Assembly: GCA_020833645.1 (NCBI GenBank)
Contig: JAJHRQ010000001.1
Span: 1 to 64,000, forward strand
Origin: Thermocrinis sp.
GTDB lineage: Bacteria > Aquificota > Aquificia > Aquificales > Aquificaceae
Length of the DNA: 64,000 nucleotides
Reading direction: 5' to 3'
The translations under genes were made by a program, and so were the position numbers. Below the pieces are notes generated by a model, which searched no databases, was not told where the DNA came from, and saw only the letters and a list, made by a program, of their open reading frames with translations. Positions 28,112 to 44,825 of the stretch are shown piece after piece; within the stretch, counting starts at the first letter, position 1, and each line of letters starts with the position of its first letter.

Positions 28112-28161
28112 AATATTAAAATATATTCTTGTATTCCAAAGGCGTCAAGAGTGGAAAAGGT

Positions 28162-28193
28162 TGTTCTAAAAATACAAACTCATTGGTACACAA
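28162..28193 (+). repeat. Solo copy of the left-end sequence of the tnpB element
   Basis: tgttctaaaaatacaaactcattggtacacaa vs 42914-42945 tgttctaaaaatccaaacccattgacacacaa, 28/32 identical. Confidence 0.7.
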
Positions 28194-34555: not shown

Positions 34556-34646
34556 CCTTTTTGCCTCTGGTTCTCCTTCTTTGCAAGAGGCAGAGGTTAT
34601 ATACCTTCCGGAGATCCACGACAACCTCATTACAGAGAACTACTAA
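34518..34646 (+). pseudogene. 5' remnant of an exported, possibly ChaN-like protein gene
   Basis: MLFRWSIALMVFSLFASGSPSLQEAEVIYLPEIHDNLITENY*; signal peptide then VIYLxEIHDN, then out of frame into tnpB-like sequence. Confidence 0.45.
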
Positions 34647-34933
34647 AGGACAAGGAGTTTTTGGCGTGCGCTATTGCCAAGGTAGATGAACGGATTAATA
34701 AGCTGAAGAGTGAGTTAAAGAAGGAGAAGAATGAATACAAAAAGAACGCACTCAAGGAGAGGGTTAAGCGGTTAAGGAAGTATTTAAAGTTATTGCTTTT
34801 CTATACACGGGACAGCGGGAAGAGTGAGCCAGCTACCCAACAAGCGGTCAATCGCTGGCGGAAACCGATGAGGGGTAGGGCAAAGACCCTACAAAAAAGC
34901 TGGCAAGTTCTTTCCGTATTGAGCAGGACATAA
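34626..34933 (+). pseudogene. 3' remnant of a TnpB-like gene (paralog of 42973..44529)
   Basis: HYRELLKDKEFLACAIAK...KKEKNEYKKNALKERV...SEPATQQA...KTLQKSWQVLSVL aligns with NYERLLKDKVYLEFALKR...IEKESNEYKRNALKSEL...SEPSSCEEA...KTTLQGVWQVLKV. Confidence 0.8.
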
Positions 34934-35376: not shown

Positions 35377-38300
35377 ATGCGAAAACTACTATTGTTGGTG
35401 CTTGTAATTTTGATGTCCTTTGGACTGCAAAGGTCTTACAGCGCCAACATGACTGACTATTGCTACATCCCACCGATCGCAGGGCTACAGGTTAAACCCA
35501 ATGTCTTGATCGTTATGGACTTCTCAGGTTCAATGCAGTTTCCAGCTTATGTGCCATGCAATTTCTACGGATACTCAAATTATAGTACAACAAATAGAAC
35601 GCTTAATGTAGCCCTGTGTGGAGCAAACACAGCAACATCTTCTTCCTCTTGGAAGTATGACCCTTCAAAGACTTACTATGGATACTTTGACCCAAACAGA
35701 TGCTATACGTATAATGGGTCTCTCGGAGCTTTCCAAGAAAACAGTTGCAACTGCTCCAATAGAATTGGGACATCTAGTTGTATCTCTGGCAATCTGCTTA
35801 ACTGGATAACAACCACACGTATTGATATAGCAAGGTGGGTGCTAACGGGTGGGAGAACAAGTCCCTCGAATCCAAACACCTTGGAAAGTGAAGGTGCAAC
35901 ATATACCATATATGACAATAATTTAAAGTGTAGCTTTACCGTAAGTGCGTCCACCACAACCAGCAGAGTACTTACCATCTCGAACTATAATGGCGCTTGC
36001 CCTATTTCAATAACAAACGCCAACATAAGAATCCGCCCATCTGACCCAAGCTCAATAAAAGGAGTCATACACTCTTTCTGCGACACTTCCGACCTAAACG
36101 GACAGATAAGTGAAAAGTGTCAGCTCATCATGGAATTTATGGTTTTTGCGAGTGATTCAAGATATGGATTAATTAGAGTAGGGAAAAACGCTACAATCTC
36201 AGACTTAATAAACGGTATAAACAGGGAAACTCCATACTGGGGGACACCTACCGGTGAAGCCCTATGGGAAGCCTACGATTATTACAAGCAAAGCAATGAC
36301 TACCCCTATGCATCAAACAGTAACCACATAAACAGAGGAAACGCCAACGCGGACCCATACTACGACGGTAGTGGTGGAAACAGCAAACCTGTTCCCTGTA
36401 GAAAGGGTTTTGTGCTTTTGATCTCTGACGGAGCTTGGAACGGAAGAGTAGACCCGGTGGTGCCTGCCAGAATTATGGCAACCCAAGACCTAAGGGCTGA
36501 CATTCCGGGCAAGCAAGATGTATATACCTACGCAATTTATGCCTTTGGCGACACAGACCCAACTACTGCCCTGCAGGGCAAACAGGCGATGATCACCACC
36601 GCCATATTCGGAGGTTTTGACGACAAAGATGGCAACACATGGCCTTATCCCTTTATCAATATACAATATCCAAACGGCTCTGGCATTTGTAGCAGTTTAG
36701 AAGGTACTGTTAGCATCAACATCCAAACTCCCACAACAACCTATTGCAACAGCAGGGGTGTTGTTTATCCTCTTCCTGAGTGTAATCCCTCTGGCACCTG
36801 GAATAGCCAATGTGCAGAGTGGGATACTGCGTTCAATTCTCCTAAAGACGGACTTCCTTATAACTTTTACGAAGCAAGCGATGCGCCCACTTTGAAAAGC
36901 GCACTTATAAGCGCACTTACTGACATCCTCCGCCGTGCGTCCTCTGGTGCCACCGTTGCCACCCTTACCTCAAGAACTAGTGTATCCTCCCTTATAGTCC
37001 AACCTTACTACTATCCCAAATACATAATGCAGGATGGCAAAGAGGTCTCTTGGCTTGGCTTTCTCAGGTCTTTTTGGATAGATACGACGCAAAACCTGAG
37101 GGAAGACACCACAAAGGACAGAATCTTGAACATAGCTGGCGCCGTTATTGACAAAATATTCCAATTCTTCTTTGATCCAAACGCAAATGAAACAAAAGTT
37201 GCCATACTGCAAGGCTCAGACACAACCTCCTCTTGTGTGATGGAAGGAACAAAATCCATAAATCAACTTATCCCTGTCTTTGATGCGGGTTGTCAGCTTG
37301 CCAACAGAGACCCATCAGACAGGAAAATTCTCTATAACAAAGATGGAACTCTTACTTCCTTTACCACCTCAGAGTCAAGCTACCTTAGCAACATATGGAA
37401 GGTTTGTTCCAACAACCCAGCGGTGCTTTGCACCAACAATGGAGATTGTGGTGGTGGGACTTGCCAACCAGCCGACGCCAGCTACATCATAAGATATCTA
37501 AGAGGTGAAAATCTATGTCCAGACCCCAAGAATTGTTCTTACCCTGATTATGTAAAAAGGACAAGGGAGGTGGATATAGCCAACTTCTGCCCAGGTGCGA
37601 GTGGATTGAAGACTTGGAAGATTGGAGATATAATAAACTCCACCCCCTCGGTGGTTAGCTATGAGCCAGTGAATATCTACCACCTACGCTATAACGACAC
37701 TACCTACCTTCAATACATACGCACAGACGCATACAAAAACAGAACAAGCTTTTTGTTTGTGGGTGCCAACGATGGTATGCTCCACGCCTTTAGGGTGGGC
37801 AGAACAGTCCAAACGGGGGACACAAACAGACCAACAAGGGTGGTAAATGCCTACAATGATATGTCCAGTGATTTAGTGGGCAGGGAAGAGTGGGCATTTA
37901 TTCCAAGGAATGCTTTGCCCTATTTGGTATGGTATGGTAATCCAAGCTATTGCAGGGTCCCAACGGTGGATTATAGAACCGTGATATTTGATGCATCAAT
38001 AGGCGGTCCTGCTAACGCAGACAAAACGGTAAGCAGTTGGAGAACCATCCTGATCGGCACAATGGGCTTTGGTGGCAAGGCTATAACAACAAGTGCAGGG
38101 ACCTTCTCTTCCTCTGTCTTTGCCCTTGACCTGACCGATTGGCTAAACGGCACAAGCGCCCAACCTACCCTTCTGTGGGAAGTATCTCTTCCTGATGGAA
38201 CGCTAACCACCTCTTACCCCGCAGTGGTGCGTCTTGGAGACCCCAACAAAAACGGCGAGTGGTATGTAGTTATAGGTAGCGGGCCGTTAAACCCTGAAGG

Positions 38301-39360
38301 AACAAGCTTTACAAGTCAGCCCAAGCTGTACTTTATAGACTTGAGGAGCGGGAACATTGTTAATCAGATAAACATTCCAGCCACTGGTGGTGTGAGCTTT
38401 GCAGTGGGAGATATTGCGGTGGTGGATGTGGATAACGATTATCAGGACGATTTAATTTACTTTGGAGCTTATGGAAAGACCAACACGGGCAATGTCTGGG
38501 GCAATTTCTACAGACTGAGTTTGAAGTCTGGAACCGTCTACAAATCTGTGTCTGCCCTGACCTCAAGCGATATATGCACCGCAATAGACCTTAGCACCTT
38601 TGCGACCGCGGGCAACACTCCTCCTGTCTTTGGTGCCCCCAGCTTTACGAAAGATGAAAACGGCAAACTGTGGGTATTCTTTGGAACGGGTAGGTATGTA
38701 ATGGACAGTTCCGATAAGGCTATATCTTACGATAACTACCTCATAGGCTTCAAGGATGAGAACTGGAACAGTGGCACATGTCCTACTGCATACACAAGAG
38801 CCCAGCTCACAGATATAACAAACCAGCCCCTCACGATAACAATAACCGAGGTAAAACAGGTCTGTATGTGTGATGCCAGCGGTTGTGGAATGCAAAATGT
38901 AGTCTATGATGCGTATAGTAGTAGCGTGCCTCCCGAACCACCAATAGGATGGTATTACAGGCTGACGGGAGAGGCTATTTACTCACAACCGCTTGTTATA
39001 GGTGGTATAGTGGATGCCCTAACCTATGTGCCACCGCAGGACATCTGTCAGATGGAAGGCAGTTCAAACTTAATATCTGTCTATTACAAGACAGGAAGAC
39101 CTTTCCCAAGACCTTCTGTGCTCTCTCCGAACGTGGTGAGCGGAACCATTGAAGTAGGACGGTCTGCCCAATTACTACAGAAGATCTCGGTGGGTCAAGG
39201 GATTCCACCCATAGGCAATCCCTTCCAAGCCTTGCAATCTTCTCAGGCAAGCCAACAGTTGGAGAAGTTCGCCCAAATATCCACTGGAGTGGTGCTTAGG
39301 ATGACACAGCAAAAGGCTACAACTGCGGAGGAGAAGTTCCTGCTATGGATAGAAAAGTAA
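35377..39360 (+). CDS. pilY1: PilY1/PilC-like type IV pilus tip adhesin
   Basis: VLIVMDFSGSMQFP (vWA MIDAS); C-terminal propeller with FVGANDGMLHAFR, WAFIPRNALPYL, DVDNDYQDDLIYFGAYG, FFGTGRYV. Confidence 0.9.
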   Translation: MRKLLLLVLVILMSFGLQRSYSANMTDYCYIPPIAGLQVKPNVLIVMDFSGSMQFPAYVPCNFYGYSNYSTTNRTLNVALCGANTATSSSSWKYDPSKTYYGYFDPNRCYTYNGSLGAFQENSCNCSNRIGTSSCISGNLLNWITTTRIDIARWVLTGGRTSPSNPNTLESEGATYTIYDNNLKCSFTVSASTTTSRVLTISNYNGACPISITNANIRIRPSDPSSIKGVIHSFCDTSDLNGQISEKCQLIMEFMVFASDSRYGLIRVGKNATISDLINGINRETPYWGTPTGEALWEAYDYYKQSNDYPYASNSNHINRGNANADPYYDGSGGNSKPVPCRKGFVLLISDGAWNGRVDPVVPARIMATQDLRADIPGKQDVYTYAIYAFGDTDPTTALQGKQAMITTAIFGGFDDKDGNTWPYPFINIQYPNGSGICSSLEGTVSINIQTPTTTYCNSRGVVYPLPECNPSGTWNSQCAEWDTAFNSPKDGLPYNFYEASDAPTLKSALISALTDILRRASSGATVATLTSRTSVSSLIVQPYYYPKYIMQDGKEVSWLGFLRSFWIDTTQNLREDTTKDRILNIAGAVIDKIFQFFFDPNANETKVAILQGSDTTSSCVMEGTKSINQLIPVFDAGCQLANRDPSDRKILYNKDGTLTSFTTSESSYLSNIWKVCSNNPAVLCTNNGDCGGGTCQPADASYIIRYLRGENLCPDPKNCSYPDYVKRTREVDIANFCPGASGLKTWKIGDIINSTPSVVSYEPVNIYHLRYNDTTYLQYIRTDAYKNRTSFLFVGANDGMLHAFRVGRTVQTGDTNRPTRVVNAYNDMSSDLVGREEWAFIPRNALPYLVWYGNPSYCRVPTVDYRTVIFDASIGGPANADKTVSSWRTILIGTMGFGGKAITTSAGTFSSSVFALDLTDWLNGTSAQPTLLWEVSLPDGTLTTSYPAVVRLGDPNKNGEWYVVIGSGPLNPEGTSFTSQPKLYFIDLRSGNIVNQINIPATGGVSFAVGDIAVVDVDNDYQDDLIYFGAYGKTNTGNVWGNFYRLSLKSGTVYKSVSALTSSDICTAIDLSTFATAGNTPPVFGAPSFTKDENGKLWVFFGTGRYVMDSSDKAISYDNYLIGFKDENWNSGTCPTAYTRAQLTDITNQPLTITITEVKQVCMCDASGCGMQNVVYDAYSSSVPPEPPIGWYYRLTGEAIYSQPLVIGGIVDALTYVPPQDICQMEGSSNLISVYYKTGRPFPRPSVLSPNVVSGTIEVGRSAQLLQKISVGQGIPPIGNPFQALQSSQASQQLEKFAQISTGVVLRMTQQKATTAEEKFLLWIEK

Positions 39361-39839
39361 AAGGTATAACCATAATGGAGGTGCTGGTGGTTATGGCTAT
39401 AATTGCCATACTTGCCAGCGCCAGCATATTGGGTTTAAGAAATCTTGTGGAGAGGCAAAGGCTTTATTCTGCGATGACCCAAGTTGCCAACGACCTAAAG
39501 GAGGCTCAGTTTAGGTCTATGTCCTCCAACATGATCTGGGGTGTGAGGTTCTGTGGGGGTGTAAGCCAATACAAAATCTTTGCGGTTGATCCTGCCACCG
39601 TCGGTAGTGGATGCCCAAGGGACGCCAATCCATCTTGCACAAACGATGCAACCACGCAGAGATTGGTCTCATTTCCACCCGGTGTTTTGCCTCAGGCGGA
39701 TTTTTATGTTCTCTTTGATAGAAGGGGTTATCCTCTAAACTGGAGCTGTGGCATAGGGGCTGGCAACATTACCCTAAGGAATAGCTACGGAAGTAGAACC
39801 GTGATCGTAGATAGCGTTGGGAGGATAAGGTATGAATAA
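39345..39839 (+). CDS. Minor prepilin, FimT/GspH-like
   Basis: [23 protein letters not shown] type IV prepilin leader. Confidence 0.82.
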   Translation: MDRKVKGITIMEVLVVMAIIAILASASILGLRNLVERQRLYSAMTQVANDLKEAQFRSMSSNMIWGVRFCGGVSQYKIFAVDPATVGSGCPRDANPSCTNDATTQRLVSFPPGVLPQADFYVLFDRRGYPLNWSCGIGAGNITLRNSYGSRTVIVDSVGRIRYE

Positions 39840-40494
39840 AAAAGGCTTTACCATAATAGAGCTTTTGGTTGCCTTTGTGATCCTTTTTATACTCATGACG
39901 GGCTTTTTGAAGGGGATACTGCTTTACATGGACTATCAAATAAACAACGGGCTAAAAAACAAGGCAAGCGAAATTGCCGTCAAGATGTCCTCCCAAATAC
40001 AAACTGCCAAGTTAGATACGAATGCCACATCTTGCTTGTCAAACAGCACAAATCCCTTTCTTTGCGATGCACGATACACCTATCCCTACAACTGGGGCTT
40101 CGCTCGGTGCGACAGTGGAAACTGCACCTTTGAGGTGCAAGACTTAGACGGTGATGGAATAGCGGACTTTTATGACCCCTACAATGGGCTGAATGGGAAT
40201 TTCAAAACAAACCCCACCGATACCGCAGGATGGTTGCGTATAAGACCATGCAATTGTGATGGGAGTAGATGTGGTTGTTGTTATGCAGATGGCACTCAAA
40301 TTAACAATGCCACCTTTACATGCGGTGAGAAGTATAGGGGAAGGTTCATATATGCTGGAACCACTTTGGCGAAGCTTATTAACCCTGCCACCAATTTAGA
40401 GGTGGGAAGGGTTGCTGGTGTGATAGTTTGGTATTTTGATACCAAGGGGAGATACAAGTATATTTCATTACCGGTTATGAGGGATACAAGATGA
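39832..40494 (+). CDS. Minor prepilin, PilV-like
   Basis: MNKKGFTIIELLVAFVILFILMTGFL. Confidence 0.8.
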   Translation: MNKKGFTIIELLVAFVILFILMTGFLKGILLYMDYQINNGLKNKASEIAVKMSSQIQTAKLDTNATSCLSNSTNPFLCDARYTYPYNWGFARCDSGNCTFEVQDLDGDGIADFYDPYNGLNGNFKTNPTDTAGWLRIRPCNCDGSRCGCCYADGTQINNATFTCGEKYRGRFIYAGTTLAKLINPATNLEVGRVAGVIVWYFDTKGRYKYISLPVMRDTR

Positions 40495-41399
40495 GAAGAA
40501 AAGGTATAACCCTTGTGGAACTTCTGGTGGTTATAGCCATAGTTGCCCTATCTGCGGGCGGAATTTTCTTTGCCTACAGAAGCTTGGTTAGAGAAACCAT
40601 AAGACAGTCTCTTTTTGCAAAGAACGAGCAGGATGTGGAAGTGCTTTTGACGAGCCTCAGGAAAGACCTTGAGGGTATAGGCTTTGGCGTCCCTGTGGAT
40701 AGGTTAAACTTGGGCACACCCGCCTGCAATGGGCTTACCGCTTTTGCTGGTTCCAACTCTGTTGTGGGTATTGCCCTTAACTGTCTCTCTGGAAGTGATG
40801 AACTTTACTTTTTGAACCTTGCCACCAGAAGCTTTAGAAATTCTGGCTGTTGGTGGGTAAGGGATGGTTCTGGAAACGTAGCAACTCAAGGGCGTAGATG
40901 GACCTTTGAGAACTGTCCTAACAACCCACCAACAGGAGAAAATCTTCTTTGTCTTAATATGGCAAGCAAGGCTACCACCAGTTGCAACTCACCGAACGTA
41001 CTGATATTTACCATGGGAAACAGGGCTTCAGTTGGCGACTTTGCGGTTAGATACTATCTAAGCAGTGCAAACCTGCCAAAGGAATGTGCACCAAACACCT
41101 TCAATTTACTAAAGCAAGTAAACGGTGATGCGGTTGGACAACCCATTGCATCCTGCATTGCGGTCTTTAGGGTTAGATACTTTGACGGTCAAGGCTACAC
41201 AACAACCATTGGTGATATAAACAATCTGCGTGCCATAAGGCTCTGCCTTTTGATGCAGGTGGGTGGAAAGATGGACACACCCATGGACCCACCTAACCGC
41301 TTTGAGCAGTGTGGATATATAACAATAAGCCCTGAGTGGAGGTGGTATAGATGGAAGCTCGTGGAAGAGGACATACCTCTAAGAAATATAAGAAAGTAA
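40491..41399 (+). CDS. Minor prepilin, PilW-like
   Basis: [26 protein letters not shown]; order within pilY1 cluster. Confidence 0.8.
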   Translation: MRRKGITLVELLVVIAIVALSAGGIFFAYRSLVRETIRQSLFAKNEQDVEVLLTSLRKDLEGIGFGVPVDRLNLGTPACNGLTAFAGSNSVVGIALNCLSGSDELYFLNLATRSFRNSGCWWVRDGSGNVATQGRRWTFENCPNNPPTGENLLCLNMASKATTSCNSPNVLIFTMGNRASVGDFAVRYYLSSANLPKECAPNTFNLLKQVNGDAVGQPIASCIAVFRVRYFDGQGYTTTIGDINNLRAIRLCLLMQVGGKMDTPMDPPNRFEQCGYITISPEWRWYRWKLVEEDIPLRNIRK

Positions 41400-41863
41400 G
41401 GGGTGTGGCACTTATATCCGTTTTGGTCACGGGCATAATGATAGCCATTGTTATCGGTGGGCTTTACTATATACTAACACGCACAATGCTAACCGGAGAA
41501 AGGGTAAGGGTCTATACATCCACAAGAGAGGCTGCAGCGGGTGGTGTTAATTATGCAGTTTTGCAGATAAAGAGCGGTCTTTTTGATACCATGGACCGGC
41601 TTGGGTGCCCTGCTGGTTGGACTTCTGATGGAAACTGCTGCACATCAAACCTAAACTACCGCCTTTCGGGAACAACGCAAACCTTTACAAACAAGATAAC
41701 AATCTGCCTGAAGGGTTATGCTCCTCCACCGGGAGAGGTTGTAGCTGGGGTTGCTTACTCCAGACCTCAAACGGGCGGAAGAGGATACATATACTTAATC
41801 ATCTCTGAGGCTGACGGTCCTCAAAGCTCAAAGTCAAGGGTTGAGGCGGTTTGGGTGAGATAG
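41351..41863 (+). CDS. PilX-like minor pilin
   Basis: RGVALISVLVTGIMIAIVIGGLYYIL without Glu+5; last of cluster. Confidence 0.7.
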   Translation: MEARGRGHTSKKYKKVRGVALISVLVTGIMIAIVIGGLYYILTRTMLTGERVRVYTSTREAAAGGVNYAVLQIKSGLFDTMDRLGCPAGWTSDGNCCTSNLNYRLSGTTQTFTNKITICLKGYAPPPGEVVAGVAYSRPQTGGRGYIYLIISEADGPQSSKSRVEAVWVR

Positions 41864-41867
41864 TCTT

Positions 41868-42290
41868 TCATTCAACAAAGCACCGAAAGGGTCTAACATC
41901 CACCTGACACACCAGCCTCTGCCCAGTGGCAGAAAAGTAAGCGTGTAGCTTTCCAGCAACCAACTGTCCCGTGTTTGAGCATTGGAAAGCCTCAACTACA
42001 GTAAAATAAACAGTCCCACCCGGAGTGGTGCGGTTTGCCACACAGTTGGGAAATGCAGAATTTCCGATTATTGAGTAGGTCTCCGTTCCAGCTGAGGGAG
42101 GGTCTGTAGAACAATAGGAAGCCACATCCGCCATACAAGCCCTTGCCATCGGAAGGGCATAAGACACAAGCCTTGCCCTTTCTGTGTAGTTTAGGTATTG
42201 GGGAACTGCAATGCTAACAAGGATGGCAATAATGGCAATAACCACCAAAAGCTCTACAAGGGTAAAACCCCTCCTCATAATTACCTCCAT
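41868..42290 (-). CDS. Type IV prepilin, PilA/PilE-like
   Basis: [36 protein letters not shown]. Confidence 0.88.
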   Translation of the reverse strand: MEVIMRRGFTLVELLVVIAIIAILVSIAVPQYLNYTERARLVSYALPMARACMADVASYCSTDPPSAGTETYSIIGNSAFPNCVANRTTPGGTVYFTVVEAFQCSNTGQLVAGKLHAYFSATGQRLVCQVDVRPFRCFVE

Positions 42291-42312
42291 AAAAAAGCCC
42301 CCAGAAGGGGGC
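42291..42312 (-). terminator. Intrinsic terminator/attenuator between two pilin genes
   Basis: Minus strand GCCCCC-TTCT-GGGGGC-TTTTTT immediately before SD (ggagg) of the downstream pilin. Confidence 0.75.
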
Positions 42313-42332
42313 TGGAGGGTTAGGTTATCTTA

Positions 42333-42749
42333 CTATGGCCTCTTCTCTACCGTGCATCTAACGGATTGGTTTTCTGGTTTGCACTTTGCCTGGTAGTCAT
42401 CTATACCTTGAATAGTTGCGATTACTTCAACGGTATCGGGAACTTGTCCATCAGGTTGGCAGTTAACGGTATCCGGTCGATTAAGATTCACCGTCTGACT
42501 TCCAGCTACCGTAATAGAAGTGTTTGCACAGTTAGCCAGCTGGTTAGTGTTTACGGTTTGACCTGCATTTTCCATACAATATGATGCTATATCCAGCATA
42601 CAACCCCTTGCTATCGGCTCCGCGTAGGAGCTTACCCTTGCCTTTCTTTGGTAGCTGAGATACTGCGGTATTGCCAAGGATGCCAAAATGGCTATGATGG
42701 CTATAACTACAAGCAACTCAATTAGGGTGAAACCCTTCCGTTGCCTCAT
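42333..42749 (-). CDS. Type IV prepilin, PilA-like
   Basis: [40 protein letters not shown] ggaggtg before ATG. Confidence 0.88.
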
Positions 42750-42972
42750 GGCTACACCTCCCATAAAGTTTTTCCCTCCCGGGACCGGTCCCATAGAGGG
42801 TTATGTTTAATTTTATTCCAGGCAAAACAAAAAAATCAAAGCTTCACAAATACTTCACAAAAACTCCCTATATTATATTCTCTATGGGAGACATCACCAG
42901 GGCAGGCTGAGACTGTTCTAAAAATCCAAACCCATTGACACACAAGAGTTTTAAAGTTAAAATTTAACCCTG

Positions 42973-44529
42973 ATGTTTGTTAGCCTTCAATTCAAGCTTG
43001 AACTGAAAAGGGAAGATAGAGAAAAACTCATAAAGCTGATGCGTAAGCAATCCTCTGCCATCCGAGTGGCATACAACATGCTAAAGGAGTTGGAAAAAGA
43101 GAAAACAAGAAACCCACATGCCCAAATATATCAAAGACTAAGACAACTATTCCCTGAACTACCAACCAGATATATTGACTCAGCCATATACAAAGCTAAG
43201 CAGTATCCCACAGATAAACCAGTGGTCTTTGGAGGCAAAAGACTTTTTGAAAAGCTTTGCAAAAATCATCTTTCAGGAAAGGCAAGAGAAAAACTTAAAA
43301 AGCAGTGGAGAGAACTAAGACAAGGAACTCTTGTAAGCATCGGGTCAAAGGCAGACAAAGGAAACAGACTAATGAGATTTGAAGACCTAAAAGGACAGAT
43401 TTACCTTAGAATTACCACAGGAAACAGAGAGTTTGTCTACGCAAAAGTGTTAAGAGAGCCAAGCAACAGCAAAGACAAGTGGCTCACCTTTATGGCTATG
43501 CTTTTAGAAAGTTGGCAAACTCAAAGCTACTTTCCTTACACAGTGGAGTTAAAACTAAGAGATGGAGAAGTTTATGGAAGTGTATCCTTTGAAATCCCAA
43601 CGCCTGAAGTTAGATACACCAAAGAAAACGGAGTAATAGCCATAGACACAAACGCATCACCCATACACTTAGCCATAGCGGGAGTCTCAAAAACTGGAGA
43701 ACTACTAAGCTATCAAACCATCAGCTTACACCACCTTTTAGGACTTTCCCAAAACAGCAAAGACCACCAAGAGTGGATATTAACCCATCAGTTAATAGAT
43801 TTAGCCATTCAGAAAGGTAAAGCTATAGCCATAGAGAACCTAAAGAAACTCAAAAAGGGAATGCGTGGAGATGGGAAAGCTGAGTTAAGAAAAAGGCTTC
43901 ATCACTGGAATGCCAAAAAGTTTATGCAAAAGCTAAAGAGGGTAGCAATGTTAAAGGGAGTGGAAGTGATAGAGGTAAATCCCGCCTATACATCAGTCAT
44001 AGGCATGCTAAAGTATGCACCGCAGTTAAGCGTAGATAAAGACGTAGCTGGTGCTTATGTGATAGGGAGAAGAGCACTGGGCTTTAAAGAGGACATGCCT
44101 GAGAATTACGAGAGGCTTTTGAAAGACAAAGTATATTTAGAGTTTGCTCTAAAGAGGTATGAAGAGGGGGAAAAGGACCTTGTGGAACTCATAGAGAAGG
44201 AAAGCAACGAATACAAGAGAAACGCACTAAAAAGCGAACTAAGGAGTGTAGAGAATTCAAAGAAACTTTTAGCTAATCTCATACAAAGCCTTCAGAGTGA
44301 GCCAAGCTCCTGCGAGGAAGCCAACGGAAGGAATCCCGAGCAGGGGAGGGTAGCAAAAACTACCCTTCAAGGTGTTTGGCAAGTTCTGAAGGTAGCCCTT
44401 CTCTTCCCTATCCTTGGAAAGGTCTTGCCAAGGGACCTTTCTCCTCTGAAGCCTGTGTTGGTGGAAGGGGTGTGGGATAGGGTGAGGAAAGGGTTAGTTC
44501 CCTTTGAGGCTAGGGGGACGTCCCGATGA
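42973..44529 (+). CDS. tnpB: TnpB/IS605 OrfB-like protein (RuvC-fold), no obvious zinc ribbon
   Basis: GVIAIDTNASPIHLAIAG (RuvC I D), AIAIENLKKLKKG (RuvC II E), VEVIEVNPAYTSVIG...SVDKDVAGAYVIGRRALG (RuvC III D). Confidence 0.82.
   Translation: MFVSLQFKLELKREDREKLIKLMRKQSSAIRVAYNMLKELEKEKTRNPHAQIYQRLRQLFPELPTRYIDSAIYKAKQYPTDKPVVFGGKRLFEKLCKNHLSGKAREKLKKQWRELRQGTLVSIGSKADKGNRLMRFEDLKGQIYLRITTGNREFVYAKVLREPSNSKDKWLTFMAMLLESWQTQSYFPYTVELKLRDGEVYGSVSFEIPTPEVRYTKENGVIAIDTNASPIHLAIAGVSKTGELLSYQTISLHHLLGLSQNSKDHQEWILTHQLIDLAIQKGKAIAIENLKKLKKGMRGDGKAELRKRLHHWNAKKFMQKLKRVAMLKGVEVIEVNPAYTSVIGMLKYAPQLSVDKDVAGAYVIGRRALGFKEDMPENYERLLKDKVYLEFALKRYEEGEKDLVELIEKESNEYKRNALKSELRSVENSKKLLANLIQSLQSEPSSCEEANGRNPEQGRVAKTTLQGVWQVLKVALLFPILGKVLPRDLSPLKPVLVEGVWDRVRKGLVPFEARGTSR
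44290..44440 (+). ncRNA. Candidate omegaRNA-like structured RNA overlapping tnpB 3' end
   Basis: Perfect hairpin AGGGTAG-CAAAAA-CTACCCT (44347-44366) with flanks CGAG.AGGGG and TGGCAAGTTCT shared with the decayed copy, where the stem is GTAGGG-CAAAGA-CCCTAC (34875-34892). Confidence 0.5.
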
Positions 44530-44825
44530 GGGATTTTTTAGAACAGCCTCAGGCGGGCTCAAACAGAGGAGACCTGGAAAGGGAGCTGGAAGATATTCTC
44601 CGATTTGCTAAGATAACCTATCAGAGGTATGTTTTAACCATAGAGGACTACACGCGGGAAGAGCTGGAAGGAGACCTGAAGGAATACACCCTACAGCTTG
44701 AAAACTTTGTTGCCCCTCTTCTGGAAAGGGCTGAAGAGGAGGGGTACGAGGATCTTGCCAAGGAGATAGAGGGCTACTACAAAAAGCTTATTGACGCAAT
44801 AAAGCAGAGGCTTTCGGAGATATGA
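44526..44825 (+). CDS. Hypothetical helical protein, N-terminus replaced by insertion element
   Basis: Native start apparently ATG 42884 (MGDITRAG) left of the element; now ATGA overlap with tnpB stop. Confidence 0.7.
   Translation: MRDFLEQPQAGSNRGDLERELEDILRFAKITYQRYVLTIEDYTREELEGDLKEYTLQLENFVAPLLERAEEEGYEDLAKEIEGYYKKLIDAIKQRLSEI

Follow-up and report, generated by a model that had tools for sequence, protein, structure and literature searches.

The window, a 64,000-nt stretch of a Thermocrinis sp. contig, carries on its + strand a tnpB open reading frame of 518 aa (42973–44529), which lies within a TIR-bounded element of 1642 bp (42909–44550). The element ends were placed by a pattern scan and by flank comparison of ~45 copies, giving 17-bp TIRs (GAGRCTGTTCTAAAAAT): the left TIR, GAGACTGTTCTAAAAAT, spans 42909–42925 by flank comparison and the right TIR 44534–44550. 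A promoter-like TTGACA-N17-TAAAAT was read from the sequence just inside the left TIR (42935–42963). The RuvC residues D225, E288 and D357 are invariant in 35 homologues, and Foldseek matched the protein to Cas12f (E 6e-8) and TnpB 8h1j (E 1e-5), although the TM-scores were low (~0.35–0.5). TIGR01766 scored over its own cut-off and the NCBIfam TnpB model under its cut-off (46.9 of 100 bits). The protein is predicted to have a TnpB/Cas12 fold with an intact RuvC D-E-D triad. No CxxC..CxxC zinc finger was found between RuvC II and III, as the only cysteines are 96 and 447 and residues 97–446 contain none. The closest named relatives are from Thermocrinis and Hydrogenobacter MAGs. Pfam DUF2192 scored above cut-off on residues 354–426, the same region as a weak match to PDB 2g8l, hinting at an archaeal protein family derived from, or sharing, this part of TnpB.

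The same genome contains ~25 copies, full-length or partial, with ~90% DNA identity, and many more were found in relatives, with several TIR copies degraded; the plasmid collection yielded no related DNA. An exact or near-exact 10-bp duplication was detected in 13 of 52 flank pairs, other lengths being few, and 10-bp TSDs were seen in young copies. For one copy (L009), inserted in what looks like a flagellar gene (NMANVNTVGFKK), empty sites that match the joined flanks without a break occur in G004 (95%) and in G002 (93%), whereas G000 gave split matches with an overlap of exactly 10 bp. IS200/IS605 elements have neither TIR nor TSD and use a Y1 transposase, and IS607 elements, also free of TIRs and TSDs, encode a serine recombinase TnpA. 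The first-pass annotation had invoked IS200/IS605 TnpB, a membership that fails on the 17-bp TIRs, the 10-bp TSDs and the absence of PF01797 from the sampled genomes (G000, G001, G002, G004, G012, G015, G022 and G029). IS607 membership of the window element was also rejected, given the TIRs and TSDs and the absence of the serine recombinase domain PF00239 from five genomes (G000, G002, G012, G015 and G022).

A candidate for mobilization in the same genome is a 934-bp element (L141) that encodes a PF01609 DDE transposase, has TIRs (GAGGCTGTTCTAAAAAT) identical to those of the tnpB element and is flanked by the 10-bp TSD GCGAAACAGT. Fragments of this type occur in several relatives, and no relative of the transposase was found in G002, G015 or G022. 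A DDE transposase with the same TIRs probably mobilizes the tnpB element in trans. A second candidate partner in G029 (L142) was rejected, since it is an IS982-like IS of ~24 copies of which this copy alone was seen between such TIRs, probably because it had landed in a TIR element. The −35 box-like motif TTGNCA adjoined the 10-bp TSD, on either side, at ~26–30% of TIR insertions versus 5–7% of controls. TTGNCA was rejected as a TAM and looks like transposase target choice, because it is about as frequent on the left as on the right (12 left and 14 right of 46 elements, one element having it on both sides).

Toward the 3′ end of tnpB lies the hairpin on which the first-pass annotation had focused. 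The two hairpins it described were confirmed by sequence read-out, AGGGTAG-CAAAAA-CTACCCT at 44347–44366 and GTAGGG-CAAAGA-CCCTAC at 34875–34892; the complete stem of the former (GGAGGGTAG/CTACCCTTC, 44345–44368, + strand) has 9 bp with one G·U pair. The second had been assigned to a decayed copy of the same element, which proved incorrect: 34629–34918 (+ strand) is 88–90% identical to the IS607-type TnpB relatives L102–L104, the proteins of which are ~41–44% identical to the window TnpB, and is instead a 3′-end tnpB fragment of a different, IS607-type element with its own RNA 5′ domain (34815–34917). The proposed conservation of structure over sequence was borne out among the homologues. A 6–11 bp stem is located between conserved blocks in all alignable copies that retain the arm, and at least six unrelated stem sequences occupy the same location. 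Variants in the aligned tails include GAAGGGTAG/CTACCCTTC, GAGAGACT/AGTCTCTC, GGGAGAGGCA/TGCCTCTTCT, GGAAGAGGT/GCCTCTTCT and GAGAAGTAG/CTACTTCTC, and the MITE version is AAGGATT/AATCCTT. Every variant retains a stem; shuffle frequencies were 0 to 0.046 per variant, and the hairpin is far above chance expectation. On the order-wide alignment A5, which was fitted to the structure model R2, the hairpin is 93% paired with two-sided changes in 7/7 pairs. The stem is therefore a swapping cassette within a variable RNA arm, and this arm is optional, being missing from L036/L037 and the tnpB copies of G029.

The hairpin belongs to a putative omegaRNA-type scaffold of ~265 nt (44286–44550, + strand) that covers the last ~80 codons of tnpB and extends to the transposon end. 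In covariance model R2, the 5′ domain (44288–44393) comprises two closing helices (44288–44298/44383–44393 and 44301–44307/44374–44380), the fixed arm A (44309–44344) and the variable hairpin. The 3′ domain (44394–44495) includes the helix 44407–44413/44475–44481 and the hairpin 44417–44424/44434–44441, both covarying, and is followed by the end hairpin H8 (44497–44519) and the last hairpin H9 (44520–44534), which has the tnpB stop codon in its loop and precedes the TIR core. The window RNA (44286–44534) folds with −121.6 kcal/mol and a folding z of −5.7. Using the MAFFT alignment A1, which was not structure-fitted, a 51-pair structure (drawn up with RNAalifold output for these sequences as a partial guide) was 97.2% paired, with two-sided changes in 22 of the 51 pairs. 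None of 500 shuffles reached this count, and slid structures gave 5–11 such pairs at only 39–66% pairing. Order-wide, on the model-fitted A5, the hairpin domain has two-sided compensatory changes in 17/20 pairs (equaled in 0/500 shuffles) and a covariation score of 0.641, compared to 0.206 when shuffled and ≤0.161 when slid; because the copies share ancestry and shuffling ignores relatedness, the shuffle counts are not probabilities. The 510 G·U cells versus 48 A·C cells point to the + strand and are to be read as supportive, the structure having been chosen on that strand. The models R1 and R2, trained solely on TIR-type copies and their MITEs and with rough E-values, were run on relatives with proteins ~36–54% identical, and nearly all of these gave an RNA match at the 3′ end of tnpB. 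An Rfam search at gathering and loose thresholds gave no relevant family match. Covariation across homologous copies, the check proposed at the outset, is thus strong, and the hairpin is best read from these comparisons as one arm of a structured guide-type RNA overlapping tnpB.

The coding properties of the tail were compared to those of the protein core. Among near copies, pS drops from 0.40 (codons 1–425) to 0.21 (codons 436–510) and pN/pS rises from 0.14 in the core to 0.43 in codons 436–510; toward the G001 copies, pS changes from 0.74 to 0.33 and pN/pS from 0.26 to 0.48. With pS halved and pN/pS raised, the tail does not follow ordinary synonymous-biased codon evolution. Codons 431–465 are without the coding pattern (0.51/0.36/0.49 by codon position), while codons 466–512 retain it (0.38/0.30/0.51, with 0.36/0.26/0.54 in the core), and AlphaFold gave pLDDT <50, a prediction of disorder, at residues 442–464 and moderate, partly confident helices at 462–508. 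On these grounds, the tnpB tail is dual-coding. The suggestion that the last ~90 codons are largely non-protein holds for the first third to half of the tail and not for 466–508, where a coding signature persists and helices are predicted with partial confidence. Intact copies from all lineages have the frame open through nearly the whole RNA, with stops located where most of the RNA domain ends or further 3′, a test that is partly circular as the interval was set from the stop codon. This open frame, together with hairpin length changes in multiples of three, would fit protein drift in a GC-rich C-terminal tail with coincidental pairing. That explanation is refuted by the compensatory changes and is further opposed by the pS drop and by RNA-only MITEs in which the structure is kept, so that we give it virtually no credence.

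The H8 loop GAGGCU (44506–44511) is complementary to the final six transposon bases, AGCCTC (44545–44550), which form the predicted 5′ and 3′ strands, respectively, of a pseudoknot. Near copies alone are too invariant to inform on this pairing, and a cross-lineage test was needed. Loop and end co-change by lineage, as GAGGCU/AGCCUC, GAGGUU/AACCUC, CCAGGU/ACCUGG, CAGGG/CCCUG and CCUGGU or CUUGGU/ACCAGG. Each loop was complementary to its own end at 5/5 positions in 52/52 read-outs (about 51/52, as the end of L050 was misassigned), compared to a match in only 12% of pairings with ends of other lineages. In the MITE subfamily of L145, L146 and L149, ~3 of 6 pseudoknot positions pair, and in L008 five do. 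A candidate end-proximal pseudoknot, a hallmark of omegaRNAs that is found in the solved TnpB omegaRNA and in Cas12 guides (PMC10097598), is present here. Since the loop pairs with the transposon end, the RNA would reach the last base of the transposon, and the next bases would be a host-derived guide. By this reach and by analogy with TnpB omegaRNAs (PMC8612924, PMC10278001), the guide segment is expected at 44551–44570 (+ strand).

A cis-acting RNA or DNA element, such as a structure acting in mRNA stability or termination, or a palindrome bound by the transposase, could produce some of the same features without a guide RNA. In the window copy H9 is followed by TTTTT, resembling an intrinsic terminator, and DNA-level constraint at the ends is expected if a DDE transposase moves the TIR-type elements, as it probably does. 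The U-run is, however, missing in L036/L037 (AAATTTAG), and the multi-helix fold, with its G·U bias to the + strand, is far larger than a terminator. The structure is also conserved in IS607-type relatives with other ends, and the loop changes in step with the transposon end over four end sequences, a pattern accounted for by neither a terminator nor a DNA palindrome. A cis-acting element in place of a guide RNA is therefore very improbable.

Elements of ~300 bp with the same TIRs and TSDs carry the full folded RNA but no tnpB. In these MITEs, a promoter-like TTGAAA-N15/16-TATAAT is positioned ~10 nt upstream of the RNA, and the RNAs keep and covary the structure, which is independent evidence that the RNA itself is the selected product. 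An unrelated MITE in G029 (L143) has TTGCCA..TATAAT followed by an RNA of different sequence, which nevertheless has its own closing helix and variable arm as well as the end hairpins and the pseudoknot strand. Together with covariation and the pseudoknot, the RNA-only MITEs lend good comparative support to the initial proposal of an omegaRNA-type scaffold overlapping the ORF end. Another group of MITEs with the same TIRs (L147, L148, L150, L151 and L159) derives from the DDE element and not from the tnpB element.

Relatives without TIRs are flanked by GGAGG on the left and end in ACCAGG on the right, and the G075 tnpB is immediately preceded by a serine recombinase gene, as in IS607; by these features they look IS607-type. 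In the protein tree, TIR-type sequences fall into two separate clades, each with full support, which indicates that TIR-type TnpBs arose twice from IS607-type TnpBs. Many of the IS607-type relatives (L045, L048–L054 and L101–L123) are inserted right after a Shine–Dalgarno-like AGGAGG, often just before a start codon, a context that fits the known IS607 TAM AGGAG (PMC11061315). No conserved TAM was found upstream of TIR-type insertions by flank comparison, in contrast to the GGAGG left of IS607-type copies. This difference, along with the degraded TIR copies, would be expected if the omegaRNA had worked in IS607-type ancestors and guide-dependent homing had been lost in the TIR type, with TnpB kept for another role, for example regulation, or as a passenger. 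Such a loss is unlikely in view of the invariant RuvC residues and the low core pN/pS. In addition, both TIR lineages appear to have adapted the pseudoknot to their new TIR end, which argues for continued selection on an RNA whose end coincides with that of the transposon.

The reading that we consider very probable is that the hairpin is an arm of an omegaRNA (reRNA) scaffold derived from the last ~80 tnpB codons and the right end, and that TnpB binds this RNA, uses the flank as a guide and cleaves matching DNA. The + strand tail of tnpB plus the right transposon end would encode the scaffold, which would fold as a closed 5′ domain, followed by a 3′ domain and then by an end module (H8, H9 and then the TIR). 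Pairing of the H8 loop with the last five to six transposon nucleotides would form the pseudoknot and put the following ~16–20 nt, a copy of host DNA, in the guide position. Once bound to the RNA, TnpB would cut matching DNA without the element, favoring retention or spread of the element. Transcription, TnpB binding, the guide role of the flank, cleavage and action in trans are all predicted here from sequence comparison. A broader scenario, to which we give even chances, is that Aquificales DDE-type TIR transposons twice captured an RNA-guided TnpB, each time giving rise to promoter-bearing RNA-only MITEs; these would be mobile guide-RNA genes that gain a new guide with every insertion and are served in trans by TnpB encoded elsewhere. 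The RNA-only MITEs make omegaRNA self-spread and trans action directly testable.

Among known systems, the ISDra2 TnpB reRNA (IS200/IS605; PMC8612924, PMC10097598) similarly derives from the tnpB 3′ end plus the right end, overlaps the C-terminal codons, has a pseudoknot beside the guide and contains a flexible stem (the unresolved 3b in ISDra2). The ISDra2 C-terminal residues overlapping the RNA are disordered and dispensable (PMC10097598). In contrast to ISDra2, the scaffold here is ~265 rather than 116 nt, zinc-finger cysteines are absent, and the element combines TIRs with 10-bp TSDs and lacks a Y1 transposase. The RAGATH-18-derived reRNA of the IS607 TnpB ISFba1 (PMC11061315) is also a long scaffold with pseudoknots, and the nearest non-TIR relatives of the window element resemble IS607 in the G075 serine recombinase and in a GGAGG flank close to the AGGAG TAM. 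However, the ISFba1 reRNA lies outside the ORF, whereas the window RNA overlaps it, and the window RNA had no RAGATH-18 match in Rfam. The TIR transposons that carry Fanzors in eukaryotes and in eukaryotic viruses likewise unite a TnpB homologue and its guide RNA on a cut-and-paste element with TIRs and TSDs, and one of the described cases is non-autonomous (PMC10711439). The present elements differ in being bacterial, in their apparent origin from IS607-type TnpB within Aquificales and in the accompanying RNA-only MITEs. It was already known that some TnpBs are associated with transposases outside the Y1 and serine recombinase types, and these had been excluded from study (PMC10278001); ends, TSD, probable partner and RNA are now described for one such family. 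The locus thus presents, in thermophilic bacteria, a deeply covarying putative omegaRNA overlapping the ORF of a TnpB lineage without zinc-finger cysteines. By its sequence features it looks like a bacterial counterpart of Fanzors, in which an RNA-guided nuclease would have shifted into TIR elements and its pseudoknot been re-matched to the new end.

Further observations concern other parts of the window and one other contig. The adjoining region of the window (35377–42794) holds a type IV pilus-like cluster with a large adhesin-like protein and prepilins. A left-TIR remnant (AAGGTTGTTCTAAAAATACAAACTCATTGG..) at 28157–28193 immediately precedes a prepilin-peptidase-like gene, whose promoter it may provide. 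A TnpB that is 85% identical (L240) was found on a contig filed as Candidatus Caldipriscus (LBFQ01000001.1), reflecting either cross-phylum transfer or misbinning.
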